Below, in pieces: positions 3,095 through 25,168 of a stretch of 29,638 bases of DNA. The position numbers and the translations under genes are program-made. The notes beneath the pieces are model-generated. The model searched no databases. It was not told where the DNA came from and was given only the letters and a program-made list of their open reading frames with translations. The stretch comes from a bacterium (GTDB lineage Bacteria > Thermosulfidibacterota > Thermosulfidibacteria > Thermosulfidibacterales > JALWSI01): NCBI GenBank assembly GCA_027080315.1, contig JALWSI010000033.1, positions 1 through 29,638 of the forward strand, given 5' to 3'. The first letter of the stretch is position 1. Each line of letters begins with the position of its first letter.

Positions 3095-5152
3095 GTGTCT
3101 TCTGCAATCTTCCCGGTAAACAGAATAAGAAACATGGGCATAGCGGCCCATATTGATGCTGGAAAGACCACCATAACCGAGAGGATCCTGTATCTCACGG
3201 GACGGATTCACCGCATTGGAGAGGTTCACGATGGCCAGGCGGTGATGGACTGGATGGAGCAGGAGAAGGAGAGGGGTATAACCATCACCTCGGCAGCCAC
3301 CTTTTGTGAGTGGAAGAAGCACGAGATAAACATCATTGATACACCAGGTCACGTTGACTTCACCGTTGAGGTGCAAAGGTGTCTCAGAGTTTTAGATGGG
3401 TTGGTGATGGTTTTTTGCGGAGTAGGGGGGGTTGAGCCCCAGTCTGAGACCGTTTGGCACCATGCCCAGAGCTACAAGGTGCCAACCATAGCCTTTGTGA
3501 ACAAGATGGACAGAATAGGTGCCTCAATGGACTCGGTGGTTGAACAGATTGAGGAGAGATGCGGGATCGTTCCCGTTGCTTTGCAGATGCCGATTGGTTC
3601 AGAGTCAAACTTCTCTGGTGTTGTGGATCTCATCTTAATGAAGGCCCTCCTGTGGGGGGAGAATGTTGAGGATATGAAGGAAGAGAATATCCCCTCAGAG
3701 CTGCTTGAAGAGGCCGAGCTTAGGCGTTCTAAGCTGATTGAGTTGGTTGCGGAGAACGACGATGAGGTGATGGAGGCCTATTTAGAAGAGAGGGAGATCA
3801 CCGAAGATGAGTTAAAAAAGGCCATTAAGCGAGCCACCCTTGCTGGAAGAATCATGCCTGTGCTCTGTGGGTCTGCCCTTAAGAACAAGGGTATTCAGCC
3901 TTTATTGGATGCGGTTGTCTGGTATCTACCCTCTCCCAAAGAGGCACCGCCCATTGAGGGGGTGGTGCCCAAAAGCGAGAAGAGGGAGAAGCGTCCTCCC
4001 GATCCCAAGGGGCCTCCCACTGCCCTTGCCTTTAAGGTCAGCATGCTGTCGGGGCATAAGCTGGTCTATTTCAGGATCTACAGCGGGGTTTTTAAAGAAG
4101 GCATGAGGCTTCTCAACACCACCTGTGACAGAAAGGAGAAGCTGGGCACTCTCCTTAGGATGCATTCAAACCGACAGGAGAGGGTTGATGCCCTTGGCCC
4201 CGGAGAGATTGCCGCCACTACCAGCCTTAGGTGGACAAAGACAGGAGACACCCTTTGCGATCCTTCTAAGCCCATAGTGCTTGAGGGAATGGAGTTTCCT
4301 GAGCCTGTCATCTCGGTGGCTGTGGAGCCCAGAAGCCAGTCAGAAGGCGATAGTTTAGAGGCAGCACTGGCCATGCTGGCAGAGGAGGATCCCACCTTCT
4401 CTTTTGAGAGGGACGAGGAGACCGGGCAGATCATAGTTTCTGGCATGGGTGAGCTGCATTTAGAGGTTCTATTTGAGAGGCTACGAAGGGATGTGAACTT
4501 GGAGTTCACCGTTGGTCAGCCCCAGGTGGTTAGAAAAGAGACCATCACTCGTCCGGTTGAGGTGGAGGAGCTTGTTGATAGGGTTCTTGGGGACGAGGAT
4601 GAGCAGCTCTTGCTGTTTGGTGGCGTCTCTTTGAGGCTTGAGCCTTTGGAGAGGGATGCGGGGGTTGAGATTGGATGGGAGGGAGATATTCCAGAAGGTG
4701 TGGACGAAGGGCGACATGCCAACCTCCTTAATGTCATACGCAAGGCCATAGAGGATGGCCTTACCGCTGGCGTGGTGGAGGGGTATCCCGTTACCGATCT
4801 CAGGGTATTGGTCACCGGATACACCTACGAACATGGGAAAACCACTGAGCAGGCCATAGCTATGGCTGCATCTTTGGCCTTGAAGAAGGGGCTTGAGAAA
4901 GGGGAGAGCGTGCTTCTGGAGCCCATAATGGAGGTGGAGGTGATAGTTCCCTCTGAGCACTTGGGGGATGTGACAGGGGACCTTGGCAGTAGAAGGGCGA
5001 GAATAGAGGGGATAACAGATAAAGGGAGCGTTCAGGTTGTGAAGGCCTATGTGCCTTTGCGCATGATGTTTGGTTACACCACCACCCTGAGATCCCTTAC
5101 CAAGGGCAGGGGAAGCCACTCTATGCAATTGCACCGTTTTGACGCGTTCTGA
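3095..5152 (+). CDS. Divergent elongation factor G paralogue (EF-G2-like GTPase)
   Basis: Translational GTPase with the five-domain EF-G layout, about 685 residues. G domain: AHIDAGKTT (G1), [13 protein letters not shown] (switch I/G2), DTPGHVDF (G3), NKMD (G4), CGSALKNKG (G5). Domain III has [11 protein letters not shown]. Domain IV is unlike EF-G1: the usual glycine-rich GGRGQYG stretch is absent and the tip carries [19 protein letters not shown] instead of the usual HDVDSSEMAFK-type sequence, while the domain V end ([26 protein letters not shown]) is normal. This points to a secondary EF-G, perhaps for recycling or stress rather than ordinary elongation. Start: GTG 3095 is preferred because GGAGG (3083-3087) lies 7 bases upstream; GTG 3089 would leave only one base. 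No str operon genes are nearby, which supports a paralogue. Confidence 0.88.
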
Positions 5153-10384: not shown

Positions 10385-11191
10385 ATGTCAGAGATTGACC
10401 CAAGGGCTGTGGTTCATCCAGAGGCCAGGCTCCATGAAGGGGTGGTGGTGGGGCCTTATGCGGTGATTGAAGAGGACGTAGAGATTGGTGAAAACTCCGT
10501 TGTTGCAGCCCATGCTGTGATCAAAAGATGGACCACCATCGGCACTGATTGCACCATAGGGGAGTTTGCCCTTTTAGGGGGCGCTCCTCAGGACATCAAC
10601 TATACGGGCTTTCCTTCTTATGTAAAAGTGGGAAACGGTAATGTTATAAGGGAGTTTGTTTCTATCCACAGGGCATCTCGTGAGAACGAGACCACTGTTG
10701 TGGGAGATGGAAACTTCATCATGGCCTATGCCCATATTGGCCATGACTGTGTTATTGGAAACAACACAATAATAACCAACTATGCGGGTCTCTCTGGCTT
10801 TGTTCAGGTTGAAGACAGGGCCATAATCTCGGGACACGTTGGAATCCATCAGTTTGTTAGGATAGGCTCCCTTGCCATTGTGTCGGGGTGTTCCGGTGTG
10901 GCCCAGGATGTTCCTCCCTATGCCATTGCAGCAGGCAGACCTGCTGAGGTGGCAGGGGTGAATGTGATTGGCTTGAGAAGAGCGGGATTCTCACCTGCTG
11001 AGAGAAAGGCCATTCAAAAGGCCTTTAAGATACTCTTCTTTTCTGGGATGAATCTCTCTCACGCTATTGAAGAGGTTTCAAAGGTGGAAGGAATGGATAG
11101 TGAACATATTGGGCATCTTTTAGACTTTATTCGTAATGCCAAAAGGGGAGTGTGTCGGCCAAAAGATGTGAGAAAGGGGATGGCTGAGTGA
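10385..11191 (+). CDS. lpxA: Acyl-ACP--UDP-N-acetylglucosamine O-acyltransferase LpxA
   Basis: First step of lipid A synthesis, transferring a 3-hydroxyacyl chain to UDP-GlcNAc. Left-handed beta-helix of hexapeptide repeats over residues 6-190, then a helical C-terminus. Catalytic histidine in AHIGHDCVIG (H120, with H117, matching E. coli H125 and H122), H155 in VGIHQF, and SGCSGVAQDVPPYA. The residue aligned with the E. coli Gly173 acyl-chain ruler is Gly168, which favours a long acyl chain. 268 residues against 262 in E. coli. The stop overlaps the next gene by four bases. It shows that the cell makes an LPS-type outer membrane. lpxB, lpxD and fabZ are not in the window. Confidence 0.97.
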   Translation: MSEIDPRAVVHPEARLHEGVVVGPYAVIEEDVEIGENSVVAAHAVIKRWTTIGTDCTIGEFALLGGAPQDINYTGFPSYVKVGNGNVIREFVSIHRASRENETTVVGDGNFIMAYAHIGHDCVIGNNTIITNYAGLSGFVQVEDRAIISGHVGIHQFVRIGSLAIVSGCSGVAQDVPPYAIAAGRPAEVAGVNVIGLRRAGFSPAERKAIQKAFKILFFSGMNLSHAIEEVSKVEGMDSEHIGHLLDFIRNAKRGVCRPKDVRKGMAE

Positions 11192-19594: not shown

Positions 19595-21067
19595 GTGAAG
19601 AGACTGGCAACACCAAAGGGATTCTGGCTGGTTCTTTTTATTATTGCAGGGGTTCTCGTCTGTTTGAATCCTGCAATGGCTTCAGAGGCGGTTCAGGAGG
19701 CTGCCAAGCATGGGCATCAGGGCAGAGAGCTGGGAGAGCTACTGCCATTGTGGAGTATCATACCCTTTGCGGGAATACTTCTATCCATAGCTATCTTCCC
19801 TTTAGTGGCAGGAGAGTTCTGGCATCACCACTATCCCAAGATCTCTGCTATGTGGGCTCTGATCACCGCAGTTCCTTTCCTCATAGCCTTTAAGGGAGAA
19901 GGTCTTCACGAGATCCTTCATATCTACATAGCTGACTATGTGCCCTTCTTGATACTGATCGGTTCCCTTTACATTGTGGCTGGGGGAATCTTACTGAGAG
20001 GGACCCTTAGAGGTACCCCTTTGGTGAATACGGGTATGCTTGCGGTGGGGACCCTTCTGGCGTCGTGGGTTGGCACCACAGGGGCCGCAATGCTGCTCAT
20101 CAAGCCTTTTCTCAAGGCCAACAACTACAGAAAGACCAAGACCTACATGGTGGTCTTCTTCATCTTCCTCGTCTGCAACATAGGAGGCTCCCTCACACCT
20201 CTTGGAGATCCTCCCCTTTTCCTGGGATTCCTGCACGGGGTTCCCTTCTTCTGGACCTTCAAGATTCTGCCCCACATGCTCTTGGCTTCTGGGATTCTGC
20301 TGGTTCTCTTCTTCTTGATAGATACCTACTTTTACAAAAAGGACGGGGTTGAGGCTCCTCCCGATGCCACTGGTGAAAAGCTCAAAGTAGAGGGACTATT
20401 CAACCTGGGGCTTTTGGCGGTTATTGTTGGAGCCGTGCTCTTCAGTGGTATGGTTAAGCTGGGGAAGGTCTCAATCTTGGGTGTTCCAAGAGAGATAGAG
20501 TCTCTAATCAGAGACGGGGTCATGGTGCTCATGGCTGTAATCTCTTTTAAGCTGACTCCTAAGCATATCCGTGAGGGCAACGACTTCTCCTGGTTCCCCA
20601 TTCAAGAGGTTGCATATCTCTTTGCTGGTATCTTCATGACCATGATTCCCGCCCTTGCCATTCTCAGGGCAGGTGAGCAGGGTGCCTTGGCTGGGTTGAT
20701 AAGGTCGGTTAAGGAACCCTACCACTTCTTCTGGATAACTGGTATTCTCTCAAGCTTCCTTGATAATGCTCCAACCTACCTCACCTTCTTCAACACGGCA
20801 TTGGGTAGGTTCTTTGTGGGTGTTCCTGAGCATCAGGCGGTTCACATGCTCATTGCCCATAAGTCCCTTTACCTTGAGGCTATCTCTGCAGGGGCCGTCT
20901 TCATGGGCGCCAATACCTACATCGGCAATGCTCCCAACTTCATGATCAGATCCATAGCCGAGGAGGCTGGTGTTCCCATGCCCAGCTTCTTTGGTTACAT
21001 CCTTAAGTTCTCCTTGCCCATACTCATTCCCATCTTCTTCTTAGTCACCTTTGTCTTTTTCAGGTAA
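19595..21067 (+). CDS. Na+/H+ antiporter-like permease of the ion transporter (NhaD/ArsB) superfamily
   Basis: 490 residues, about 11-12 hydrophobic segments. An N-terminal signal-type helix ends in NPAMA-SEAVQ (residues 25-34), followed by a periplasmic stretch with HGHQG. Core motifs: LTPLGDPPLFLGFLHGVPFF near 206 and SSFLDNAPTYLTFFNTALG near 386, each in a half of the inverted-repeat fold, then FMGANTYIGNAPNFMIRS near 433. These match the NhaD-like 'sodium:proton antiporter' group often found in sulfur-metabolising and thermophilic bacteria; the substrate could also be an organic anion. GTG 19595 has AAGGAGAG about 7 bases upstream. A strong terminator-like hairpin lies 82 bases after the stop, inside the next gene. 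Confidence 0.8.
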   Translation: MKRLATPKGFWLVLFIIAGVLVCLNPAMASEAVQEAAKHGHQGRELGELLPLWSIIPFAGILLSIAIFPLVAGEFWHHHYPKISAMWALITAVPFLIAFKGEGLHEILHIYIADYVPFLILIGSLYIVAGGILLRGTLRGTPLVNTGMLAVGTLLASWVGTTGAAMLLIKPFLKANNYRKTKTYMVVFFIFLVCNIGGSLTPLGDPPLFLGFLHGVPFFWTFKILPHMLLASGILLVLFFLIDTYFYKKDGVEAPPDATGEKLKVEGLFNLGLLAVIVGAVLFSGMVKLGKVSILGVPREIESLIRDGVMVLMAVISFKLTPKHIREGNDFSWFPIQEVAYLFAGIFMTMIPALAILRAGEQGALAGLIRSVKEPYHFFWITGILSSFLDNAPTYLTFFNTALGRFFVGVPEHQAVHMLIAHKSLYLEAISAGAVFMGANTYIGNAPNFMIRSIAEEAGVPMPSFFGYILKFSLPILIPIFFLVTFVFFR

Positions 21068-21086
21068 TTCTTCACAAAAAGGGTGA

Positions 21087-21692
21087 ATGGTGGTATATCC
21101 TCCCTCCATGGGGAGGATGGGATGTAGTAAGGCCAATTGCGGGAAAACAAAGGGGAGAGTGATCCTCGGGATCATCCTCCCCTTTTTTATTCTTGTCTCT
21201 GTGGCCTTGGCTGCACAGGTGGAGGTGGCCTCTGTAAGGGTCTTTAGGGATAAGTGTAGAGATAGAGTGTCTATTGAGCTTAAGGGTCTTGAGCTCACAC
21301 CTGTTCAAGAGGCCATAGAGGGAGGTATCCCCTACACCATAGAGTACAGGGTAAGGATCATGGAAGAGAGGCTACTCTGGGACAAGACTGTGTGGGAGGG
21401 GATATACGACAGAACCCTTAAGTTCAATCTTATCACCAAAGAGTACAAGATAGAGGATCAGACCTCCTACCCAGAGAGGTTCTCAAATAAAGATAGATTC
21501 TTGAAAAAGGCTAAGGTTGCCATATTTCCTCTTCCAGAGGGTGTTCTGAAAAAAGGCGAAAAGTGTGCTCAGTATCTTGAGGTGAGGGTTTGCCGTAATA
21601 GCATTCACCTCTTCTTTCCCCTCTCCATTATTGCCCCTTTAATAAGGCCAGATTCGGACTTTGATACTGGATGGATAAGGGTGAAACAATAG
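21087..21692 (+). CDS. DUF4390 exported protein upstream of NtrYX
   Basis: 201 residues from ATG 21087. After a Lys/Arg-bearing start there is a signal-type helix (VILGIILPFFILVSVALA, ending at AQVEV), then a beta-rich domain with two cysteines conserved in position (FRDKCRDRVSIELKGLELT; KKGEKCAQYLEVRVCRNS). This is the DUF4390 pattern, a family repeatedly encoded just before NtrY kinases; it may be a periplasmic partner of the sensor, which is inference. Start is uncertain: ATG 21087 (AAAGGGTGA upstream), ATG 21108 and ATG 21117 are in frame. All of them place a terminator-like hairpin (21149-21185) inside the signal-peptide codons. It overlaps ntrY by 22 bases. Confidence 0.78.
   Translation: MVVYPPSMGRMGCSKANCGKTKGRVILGIILPFFILVSVALAAQVEVASVRVFRDKCRDRVSIELKGLELTPVQEAIEGGIPYTIEYRVRIMEERLLWDKTVWEGIYDRTLKFNLITKEYKIEDQTSYPERFSNKDRFLKKAKVAIFPLPEGVLKKGEKCAQYLEVRVCRNSIHLFFPLSIIAPLIRPDSDFDTGWIRVKQ
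21097..21182 (+). promoter_or_regulatory. Candidate attenuator: alternative pairings that compete with the 21149-21185 terminator
   Basis: Segment 1, ATCCTCCC (21097-21104), pairs perfectly with GGGAGGAT (21111-21118). Segment 2, GGGGAGGATG (21110-21119), also pairs perfectly over 10 bases with CATCCTCCCC (21173-21182), which is the right arm of the downstream terminator stem. The 2:4 helix therefore excludes both the 1:2 hairpin and the terminator, as in classical attenuators. Segment 1 falls on Pro-Pro codons if translation starts at 21087. The complementarity is read directly from the sequence; regulation is inferred. Confidence 0.5.
21149..21191 (+). terminator. Intrinsic-terminator-like hairpin inside the DUF4390 signal-peptide codons
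   Basis: The left arm 21149-21165 (AAAGGGGAGAGTGATCC) pairs with 21169-21185 (GGATCATCCTCCCCTTT) around a TCG loop: 17 positions with one G-T pair and one A-C mismatch, with TTTTTT across 21183-21188. It has stem strength and a U-tract like a Rho-independent terminator. It may end the antiporter transcript or, with the upstream segments, set how much transcription reaches ntrYX. It lies in frame within the DUF4390 reading frame, where the arms code for hydrophobic residues. Confidence 0.6.
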
Positions 21693-23809
21693 AAAAGACC
21701 ACCACTGGCTACTCCCGTAAGACCATTCTCCTTGTGGGGGTGGTTCTGGTACTCTTTGTGGGTCTCACGGTTTTGGAGGTTGCCCTGCAGGGCAAGAAGG
21801 GTCCCTCTATATTGCCCACCAATGTGATCATATTTGCCCTCATAAACCTTAACATCTTAGTGCTCATGGTCTTTATGCTCCTGCTGGGTCGTAACCTCGT
21901 TAAACTGTACTTTGAGAGAAGGAGCGGAGCCATTGGTTCAAAGTTCAAGACCAAGCTGGTGCTGGCCTTCATAGGACTCTCCATTATCCCCACCCTCATG
22001 CTCTTTTTGGTGGCCAGTGGGATCATCACCTCCTTAGTGGATAGCTGGTTCAGCGTGCAGCAGGATCTCTTCATGAAGGAGTCTCTCTCCATCTCTCAGG
22101 AATACCTTGAGAGGTGGAACGAAGAGGCCGAACGCATCTTTGAGGCCCTTGACAACTGTACAGGTCTGAAGATGGAGAGTCCTTATCTCACCTCTGATAG
22201 GTTGCTGAATGCTGCCTCTGAGCATGGGGCCAAGTTGATAGAGGTGTTTGGTTTTGACGGAAGGTTGATTGCCCAAAGCAAGTACAGACCCAAATACTCA
22301 ACTCCGCCAGAGATGCTCAAAGGCTTCTTGGATGGCTCAGAAAAGGTTAGGGGAGAGGAACTGGCCAAAACCTACAAGGTCTTTGTGAGGGGGAAAAACA
22401 GGGTTATGGTTGTCACCTTTAAGATACCATCTTCGGTAAGGAAAAGCCTCAACACTATCACCAACATCTACCAGGGGTATCAAGAGATGAAGTCTGTGAG
22501 CAAGTCTGTTAAGTGGCTATACATCATATCCTTCTTGGTTGTGACCATGCTAATCCTCTTCTCTTCCATGTGGATAGGACTTCAGATCGCCAAGGGGATA
22601 ACGGTTCCCATTGAGGCCTTGGCTAAGGCCACGGAAGAGGTTGCGGCAGGTGATCTTGATGTCTCGGTGGGGGTGAAAGCAGACGACGAGATAGGCATCT
22701 TGGTTAACTCCTTCAACTCTATGACCCAGGAGTTGAAGAAGAACAGAAGGCGTCTGGAGGAGGGTAAGAGGTATATTGAGACGGTGCTTGAGAGCGTTGC
22801 CACCGGGGTCATCTCATTGGACAAAGAGGGCAAGGTGATAAGCATAAACGCAGCCGCAAGAAACCTGCTTGGCATCGGTGAAGATAAGGGTTTTGAGGGA
22901 GAGTCTTACAGGGCCCTTCTATCAGAGGGGTCGTTTCACTCTTTGATGGAGACCATAAGGGACGCCTTGAGACAGGGAGATAAAAGGGGAAGAAGCGAGG
23001 TTAGGCTGGTGAGGGCAGAGGGGGTGGCCATTCTCAACGTCGGTGTAACCCCCATCTACGATCAAGGGGGCAAATACGACGGAATGGTGATAGTCTTGGA
23101 GGACATGACTGAGCTCGCCAAGGCCCAGAGGGCGGCGGCCTGGGAGGAGGTGGCCAGAAGGGTGGCCCATGAGATCAAGAACCCCTTAACCCCCATAAAG
23201 CTCTCAGCCCAGCGCATGAAGAGAAGGGTGGTGCGGGCGGAGATCCCCGAAGACGAGAAGAGCGTGATGAACCATTGCATTGACACCATCATTGATCAGG
23301 TGGATCTCATGAGAAACATGGTTAACGAGTTTCATCAGTTTGCGAGATTCCCCAAGATCACCCCTGTGCCCTGCAATGTGGAAGAGATGGTTGATGAGGT
23401 GCGCACCACCTACCACTCTTCGCATCCCAAGGTTGAGATCTCCATTGAGAAGGTTGGGGAGATCCCCACTCTCATGCTGGACAAGGAGCAGATGAAGAGG
23501 GTACTCATGAACCTCGTGGATAATGCCATTGAGGCCATGAAGGGGAAGGGAAGGGTTGAGATAAGGCTTTTGAGAGACAAGACCAACAATCAACTGGTTA
23601 TAGAGGTTAAGGACGAGGGTGAGGGGATTCCGGCAGAGGAGAGGGAGCTTATCTTTCAGCCGTACTTCACCACCAAAGAAGGAGGAACCGGTTTGGGACT
23701 GGCGATAGTGAACCGGATAGTTACTGACCACGGTGGCTACATAAGGGTGAGACCCAATAGACCAAAGGGATCTGTTTTTGTGATAGAGCTTCCCATAACA
23801 GAGGCCTAA
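21671..23809 (+). CDS. ntrY: NtrY-like membrane sensor histidine kinase
   Basis: 712 residues. Membrane helices at about 18-38, 51-73 and 97-122, a periplasmic sensor region at about 125-275, a fourth helix at about 279-300, HAMP at 300-355, PAS at about 362-470 (ETVLESVATGVISLDKEGKV), then the HisKA H-box VARRVAHEIKNPLTPI with phospho-acceptor H500. HATPase motifs follow: N-box LVDNAIEAMKG, G1 DEGEGI, F-box FQPYFTTK, G2 GGTGLGLAI. This is the NtrY topology; the partner regulator is encoded 3 bases downstream. NtrYX systems respond to nitrogen, redox or envelope cues depending on the organism, so the signal is unknown here. ATG 21671 lies inside the DUF4390 gene with no clear ribosome site, so its translation probably depends on that gene. 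Confidence 0.93.
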   Translation: MDKGETIEKTTTGYSRKTILLVGVVLVLFVGLTVLEVALQGKKGPSILPTNVIIFALINLNILVLMVFMLLLGRNLVKLYFERRSGAIGSKFKTKLVLAFIGLSIIPTLMLFLVASGIITSLVDSWFSVQQDLFMKESLSISQEYLERWNEEAERIFEALDNCTGLKMESPYLTSDRLLNAASEHGAKLIEVFGFDGRLIAQSKYRPKYSTPPEMLKGFLDGSEKVRGEELAKTYKVFVRGKNRVMVVTFKIPSSVRKSLNTITNIYQGYQEMKSVSKSVKWLYIISFLVVTMLILFSSMWIGLQIAKGITVPIEALAKATEEVAAGDLDVSVGVKADDEIGILVNSFNSMTQELKKNRRRLEEGKRYIETVLESVATGVISLDKEGKVISINAAARNLLGIGEDKGFEGESYRALLSEGSFHSLMETIRDALRQGDKRGRSEVRLVRAEGVAILNVGVTPIYDQGGKYDGMVIVLEDMTELAKAQRAAAWEEVARRVAHEIKNPLTPIKLSAQRMKRRVVRAEIPEDEKSVMNHCIDTIIDQVDLMRNMVNEFHQFARFPKITPVPCNVEEMVDEVRTTYHSSHPKVEISIEKVGEIPTLMLDKEQMKRVLMNLVDNAIEAMKGKGRVEIRLLRDKTNNQLVIEVKDEGEGIPAEERELIFQPYFTTKEGGTGLGLAIVNRIVTDHGGYIRVRPNRPKGSVFVIELPITEA

Positions 23810-23812
23810 GAT

Positions 23813-25168
23813 ATGGATAAAACCCGGATACTCATAGTGGACGACGAGGAGCCCATAAGGGCATCTCTCTCTGAGGTGCTTCAGGACGAGGGGTATCTTC
23901 CAGTTGCAGTAGAATCTGCAGAGGAGGGGCTTGAGCTCCTAAGATCCCAAAAGGTGGACCTGGTGCTGTTGGACATCTGGTTGCCAGGAATGGATGGGGT
24001 TACCGCTCTGCAGAAGATGAAAGAGGACGATCCTCTGTTGCCTGTGATCGTGATATCGGGCCACGGCACCATTGAGACAGCAGTAAAGACCGTAAAGCTT
24101 GGGGCCTACGACTTCGTGGAGAAGCCAATCTCCCTTGATGAGCTTCTCATAAGGATCTCCAACGCCTTAGAGCAGTCAAGGCTGCGAAGAGAGAACCTGC
24201 GCCTCAAGGCCAGAATGGAGGAGGAGCGCACCTTCATTGCCAAAAGCAAGGCCATGCAGGAGCTGCTGAGGCAGGTAGAGATAGTGGCCCCCACAGATGG
24301 ATGGGTGCTCCTCATGGGAGAGAGCGGCACAGGTAAAGAGCTTGTGGCGCGCCAGGTGCACGAGAGAAGCCTTCGCAAAGAGGGCCCCTTTGTAGAGGTG
24401 AACTGCGCCGCCTTGCCGGAAGAGAGGGTGGAGATCGAGCTTTTTGGAAGCGAAGAGATTGCAGAGGACGGCACCAAAAAGATCGTTAAGGGCAGATTTG
24501 AACAGTCCTCCGGTGGATCCCTCTTTCTGGATGAGGTGGGGGATATGTCTTTGGCCATTCAGGCCAAGGTGCTCAGAACCCTGCAAGAGCTTGCTGTGTG
24601 CAGGGTTGGAAGCAAAGAGGTGGTGCCTTTAGATCTGCGAATAATAGCCTCTACAAACAAGGACCTTGAGAAGGCCATACAGGAGGGGCTTTTCAGAGAA
24701 GATCTCTTTTTCAGGCTCAATGTGGTGCCCATAAGGGTGCCCCCTTTAAGGGAGCGCAGAGAGGACATAATGCCGCTTTGTGAGCACTTTGTCTCCTTTT
24801 TCTGCACCAAGTACGGCAGAAGGCTTAAGCATATCACCCCAGCGGCAGAGAAGCTGCTGGTGGGGTATTCCTGGCCGGGAAACGTGAGGGAGCTGAAGAA
24901 CGTTATGGAGAGGCTCATCATAATGGTGCAAGAGGACGAGATTGAGCCCCGACACCTGCCTTTGGCCATCCAGCAGCAGGATGGAGAGGGATACAGCCTC
25001 TACGATGATCGGCCTTTGAGGGATGCAAAGGATGCCTTTGAGCGGGAGTACATCCTTAAGCAGCTGGAGAAGCACAACTGGAACATCAGCCACACAGCAG
25101 AGGCCTTGGGCATAGAGAGAAGCAACCTTTACAAAAAGATGAAGCAGCTCAACATTGAAAGAAGGTGA
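23813..25168 (+). CDS. ntrX: NtrX-like response regulator with AAA+ domain lacking GAFTGA
   Basis: 451 residues. Receiver domain with acidic D10-D11 and phospho-acceptor D54 in LVLLDIWLPGMDG. AAA+ domain: Walker A MGESGTGKELVARQVHERS near 166, Walker B GGSLFLDEVGDMSLAIQAKV near 235, arginine-finger region RLNVVPIRVPPLRERREDI, and sensor II YSWPGNVRELKNVMERL. C-terminal Fis-type helix-turn-helix NWNISHTAEALGIERSNLYK. In the L1 loop, where sigma-54 activators carry GAFTGA, the sequence is ELFGSEEIAEDGTKKIVKG, so direct sigma-54 contact is unlikely. This loss is known for some NtrX proteins, which act as sigma-54-independent regulators. ATG 23813 with AGAGG upstream; encoded directly after its kinase. 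Confidence 0.92.
   Translation: MDKTRILIVDDEEPIRASLSEVLQDEGYLPVAVESAEEGLELLRSQKVDLVLLDIWLPGMDGVTALQKMKEDDPLLPVIVISGHGTIETAVKTVKLGAYDFVEKPISLDELLIRISNALEQSRLRRENLRLKARMEEERTFIAKSKAMQELLRQVEIVAPTDGWVLLMGESGTGKELVARQVHERSLRKEGPFVEVNCAALPEERVEIELFGSEEIAEDGTKKIVKGRFEQSSGGSLFLDEVGDMSLAIQAKVLRTLQELAVCRVGSKEVVPLDLRIIASTNKDLEKAIQEGLFREDLFFRLNVVPIRVPPLRERREDIMPLCEHFVSFFCTKYGRRLKHITPAAEKLLVGYSWPGNVRELKNVMERLIIMVQEDEIEPRHLPLAIQQQDGEGYSLYDDRPLRDAKDAFEREYILKQLEKHNWNISHTAEALGIERSNLYKKMKQLNIERR

Follow-up and report, generated by a model that had tools for sequence, protein, structure and literature searches.

The genes for an NtrY-like sensor kinase and an NtrX-like response regulator in this bacterium follow a DUF4390 gene whose first codons hold a strong hairpin ending in a T tract. 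The question raised by the locus is whether this hairpin stops RNA polymerase and, if so, what lets polymerase through. We analyzed the 29,638-nucleotide stretch of DNA that carries the locus (the window) within its 1.84-Mb assembly of 253 contigs and compared it with the phylum set of nine genomes, in which the nearest relatives are related at the order level. In our best explanation, to which we assign a probability of about 0.6, the hairpin at 21149-21188 works as a true intrinsic terminator where nhaD gives way to DUF4390-ntrYX; its 3' arm and T tract double as signal-peptide codons, and it is opened by translation. The genes and the candidate expression signals are:

19595-21067, plus strand: nhaD-like ion antiporter gene (CitMHS_2; Pfam PF16980, E = 4.6e-181)
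21071-21099, plus strand: weak promoter-like pair TTCACA-17-TATATC, read from the sequence
21080-21086, plus strand: Shine-Dalgarno-like AGGGTGA before ATG 21087 / GTG 21090
21087-21692, plus strand: DUF4390 (PlrP-like periplasmic protein) ORF (Pfam PF14334, E = 8.6e-12)
21671-23809, plus strand: ntrY-like sensor kinase gene (NtrY_N, HAMP, PAS, HisKA, HATPase_c)
23813-25168, plus strand: ntrX-like sigma-54 response regulator gene (Response_reg, Sigma54_activat)

The DUF4390 ORF, when called mechanically, starts 20 nt past nhaD, and the nhaD stop codon lies 82 nt ahead of the hairpin. Homologues of nhaD that are 70-77% identical occur in seven of eight phylum relatives but are sited elsewhere in the genome. 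In the relatives that were read, nhaD is followed by a convergent gene, and sigma-70 region 4 (VTRERIRQIEAKALKK) is encoded on the opposite strand. Since nhaD has another setting in the relatives, the nhaD/DUF4390 junction (19595-21692) is lineage-specific; a terminator carried over together with nhaD was looked for in the relatives and rejected. DUF4390 was found in eight of the nine phylum genomes, and in all eight it immediately precedes an NtrY-type kinase gene (21087-25168 here; L072-L079). In the relatives the DUF4390-ntrY pair stands in a context other than nhaD. The PlrP pairing was described in beta- and gamma-proteobacteria, to which this small phylum does not belong.

The RNA elements under discussion, all on the transcribed strand, are:

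21094-21126, plus strand: upstream hairpin (21094-21107 with 21112-21126, from folding), holding segments 1 (21097-21104) and 2 (21111-21118)
21110-21119, plus strand: segment 2, GGGGAGGATG, a near-copy of the terminator 5' arm, complementary to 21173-21182 over 10 nt without a mismatch
21149-21185, plus strand: terminator hairpin, segment 3 (21149-21165) with segment 4 (21169-21185), 16 pairs, one mismatch and a loop of 3; -23.9 kcal/mol at 37 C and -12 at 65 C
21183-21188, plus strand: T6 tract, the last three stem bases plus three

The hairpin has the features of an intrinsic terminator: its stem is rich in G+C, a U tract comes after it, and a gene of the same orientation lies upstream. Complementarity between its arms extends to 20 nt at 85% (21146-21165 with 21169-21188), and the same bases also form a hairpin followed by T residues on the minus strand (-23.3). 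For transcripts with 5' ends from 21068 to 21098 and the RNA end at 21188, the probability of the 3:4 pairing is about 0.96. We placed the hairpin in a census of the window and other contigs of the same genome, covering 935 kb and then a further 157 kb (about 1.09 Mb, or about 59% of the genome). It ranked fifth in strength in the first 450 kb and ninth in 935 kb. Hairpins of -12 or below numbered 21 in the 450 kb, as against 1-4 in block shuffles, and about 60 hairpins of about -17 or below with a T tract were found in the whole census. By their position, most of these are terminators. With the window excluded, 40 other such hairpins lie within 150 nt past a stop codon, at a median distance of 22 nt, and other AAGGGGAGG...CCTCCCCTT palindromes of this genome also come after stop codons. 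The window hairpin shares stem strength, T tract, the AAGGGGAGG/CCTCCCCTT arms and a location after a stop codon with these terminators. It differs from them in lying 82 nt past the stop, within codons of the gene that follows; only two of the 40 comparable terminators are as far away, and this spacing counts against reading it as a terminator. The hairpin thus belongs to the terminator class of this genome by strength but not by spacing.

Also weighing against that reading, no terminator-like hairpin was found in the DUF4390 region (-300 to +150) of seven order-level relatives. A scan of the window against Rfam gave no match to a leader or riboswitch covariance model at the gathering score. 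An origin of the hairpin from a repeat element was rejected, as the genome holds no second copy.

Under the preferred reading, polymerase that comes in from nhaD or has initiated a short way upstream would stop near 21188 when no ribosome follows closely. When DUF4390 is translated, the leading ribosome would enter the 5' arm, the hairpin would stay open, and transcription would continue into ntrYX. Control, if there is any, would be set by whether the DUF4390 gene is translated and not by the pairing of segments 2 and 4. That polymerase does stop here and that ribosomes relieve the stop are both inferred. It counts against the reading that the hairpin must leave room for expression of DUF4390-ntrYX, so that termination would be partial or another promoter would lie downstream.

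The reading depends on where DUF4390 translation begins, for which 21087/21090, 21108, 21117 and 21159 are candidate starts. Read from 21087, the frame continues to 21692, with no stop codon ahead of the terminator. In the relatives DUF4390 begins with MRK, MKK or similar, aligned with about 21150, and all of these proteins open with a short signal peptide. The h-region of the signal peptide is coded here by the 3' arm of the hairpin together with the T tract, T6 being read as Phe-Phe. The proposal of the first-pass annotation that the hairpin also encodes the core of an export signal therefore holds, and a dual function is plausible. The coding log-odds per codon are 0.0 for 21087-21158 and 0.35 for 21159-21221, compared with a gene mean of 0.26 and a 5th percentile of 0.03; values nearly as low over the first 24 codons occur in two of 22 genes (0.02 and 0.03). 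This weak coding character of 21087-21158 speaks against translation from 21087, but it is suggestive only.

The hairpin could instead be a plain and fully efficient terminator that serves nhaD alone, with DUF4390-ntrYX expressed from a downstream promoter and the protein made with a shortened signal peptide or with none. Its position after nhaD and its membership of the terminator class would fit, and two other ORFs (L092 and L102) are mechanically open through a preceding terminator with a likely start beyond it. However, the h-region is coded by the 3' arm at the place where the short signal peptides of the relatives align, no in-frame start past the hairpin would keep the signal peptide, and 82 nt is far for a terminator of this genome. 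We regard this explanation as unlikely. Frames open through the terminator of the preceding gene were observed at L092 (G000:C174, position 10365) and L160 (G000:C95, position 11138); at L092, where the likely start lies past the terminator, the case is a warning against choosing the first start codon.

A further explanation is coincidence, in which a purine-rich start region and pyrimidine-rich hydrophobic codons pair by chance and no termination occurs in translated mRNA. Signal peptides do supply CTC, CCC and TTT codons. We therefore kept the peptide KTKGRVILGIILPFFI and drew its codons by local usage. T6 taken alone arose in 44% of these synonymous codings, but only 57 of 20,000 draws folded as stably as the real hairpin, and stability and T6 came together in only 29 of 30,000. 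As this combination is rare, hydrophobic codons do not by themselves account for the RNA shape. In a set of 200 ORFs with a hydrophobic N terminus, hairpins of -18 or below were found in two, as against 0.1 expected from synonymous draws. One of the two is the window hairpin, which prompted the test; this weakens the case for a terminator and leaves a single independent hairpin to set against about 0.1. With these numbers, coincidence appears quite improbable.

The second case (L132; G000:C216, minus strand, position 4129 of the reverse complement) is a terminator-like hairpin of -18.5 within the signal-peptide codons (MMRGAVLIPLLFILWAPLCHAG) of a gene for a TPR-like protein, where GAGAGGGGCGG...CCGCTCCTTTTTATT encodes RGAVLIPLLFI. 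It lies 31 nt past the preceding stop codon, and an AAGGAG motif is present at that stop. None of the relatives checked showed the L132 hairpin, although in some of them the open frame that was read is not clearly the homologue.

The remaining explanations involve the upstream segments. The first-pass annotation had described a switch in which segment 1 pairs with 2, segment 2 with part of 4, and segment 3 with 4 ahead of a U tract. All of these pairings were recovered at the coordinates given above, including an 8-nt perfect match of 21097-21104 with 21111-21118 and TTTTTT at 21183-21188. The region folds with a z-score of -3.35 relative to dinucleotide shuffles. The 1:2 pairing as drawn is a minor register (P about 0.01-0.04), and the pairing of 21094-21107 with 21112-21126 is favored (P about 0.97). 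The upstream hairpin is only modestly beyond the synonymous null (705 of 20,000). The 10-nt match between segments 2 and 4 exceeds dinucleotide shuffles (p = 0.003), but it stands among about 60 screened terminators, and another of these, L102, has a match of equal length; if 21110-21119 is coding, such a match arises in 12% of synonymous codings. L102 (G000:C201, minus strand, position 10926 of the reverse complement) combines a terminator with a perfect 10-nt upstream copy of its 5' arm, in the same duplicated-arm layout as the window; a tRNA-like 3' end lies on one side of it and a gene that begins MRVEELIAGLDGIF on the other.

One use of these segments would make termination depend on the 5' end of the transcript. 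RNAs reading through from nhaD would hold segment 1, keep segment 2 locked and terminate, while RNAs started at about 21106-21110 would lack segment 1, so that segment 2 could compete for segment 4 and some polymerases would pass into DUF4390-ntrYX. The computed probability of the 2:4 pairing with the RNA end at 21188 is indeed 0 at 37 C for 5' ends up to 21102, 0.08 at 21106 and 0.81 at 21110, and at 65 C it is 0.47 for a start at 21106 and 0.65 for 21110. The weak promoter-like pair at 21071-21099 would predict a start near 21106, downstream of segment 1. However, this pair falls under the cut-off of the promoter scan and, taken alone, is at chance level, and the advantage of 2:4 has almost vanished by a start at 21114. 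The inner 3:4 hairpin, moreover, forms first (P 0.48-0.77 with the RNA end at 21176), and equilibrium values are poorly informative on kinetics. We consider this mechanism very unlikely.

In the original attenuator proposal, a ribosome paused at Pro-Pro would mask segment 1 and free segment 2 to pair with segment 4, blocking the terminator. Like the trp/his-type attenuators, the locus allows four segments with mutually exclusive pairings to be drawn, and every proposed pairing exists. Antiterminators of the trp type take the 5' arm of the terminator. Here, on the other hand, segment 2 would have to capture the 3' arm, the last part of the stem to be synthesized, so that the 2:4 helix has no chance to form ahead of the terminator. 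In transcripts that begin at 21102 or farther upstream, the computed probability of 2:4 with a complete stem does not exceed 0.001 at 37 C, and for 5' ends at 21068 or 21087 the 3:4 pairing is favored over it by about 14 kcal/mol, with 2:4 at a probability of 0; 2:4 is thus no effective antiterminator in long transcripts. The proposed masking fails as well, since a ribosome whose P site holds Pro5 (21099), and which we take to protect the RNA to about 21114, would cover half of segment 2. The trp/his-type systems differ further in having a leader stop codon and a run of regulatory codons. Here there is a single Pro-Pro in a stretch of weak coding character (21087-21158), and no stop codon precedes the terminator; as the frame continues across the hairpin, ribosomes translating it would unfold the stem in any case. 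In a literature search we found no paper joining ntrYX, attenuation, leader and terminator. A four-part RNA switch is not supported, and we consider this proposal the most remote of those weighed here.

A terminator opened by translation has an experimental precedent in the pil1 locus of Streptococcus gallolyticus, where translation through a terminator was shown to raise downstream transcription (PMC3894217). Common to pil1/pil3 and the present locus are an intrinsic terminator close to the 5' end of the operon transcript and a reading frame through the stem, translation of which would hold the stem open. As in pil1, the reading frame here is open through the stem. A start upstream of the stem is suggested by the AGGGTGA before 21087/21090, yet the coding character is weak up to 21158. 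The pil1 system uses a separate, phase-variable leader peptide; in the window the peptide would be the signal peptide of the structural gene itself, and no repeats were seen. In Escherichia coli, premature and ORF-internal 3' ends are widespread (PMC7815308); the type of element is therefore not new, while its placement is uncommon.

The gene order recalls plrP-plrSR of Bordetella, in which a DUF4390 signal-peptide protein, PlrP, likewise directly precedes an NtrY-type kinase and an NtrX-type regulator, and genetic evidence made PlrP the third component of an NtrYX-family system (PMC13001219). The promoter there lies in the 3' end of rsmB, and a text search of that paper gave no hit for "terminator". 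A role for DUF4390 has thus emerged only recently, with PlrP as the third component of an NtrYX-type system. If the hairpin described here terminates transcription in the cell, translation of the signal peptide of the periplasmic partner would gate the expression of both that partner and the NtrY-type kinase. The locus would then be a clear case of one sequence that serves both as a terminator and as an export signal, with a second candidate in the same genome.
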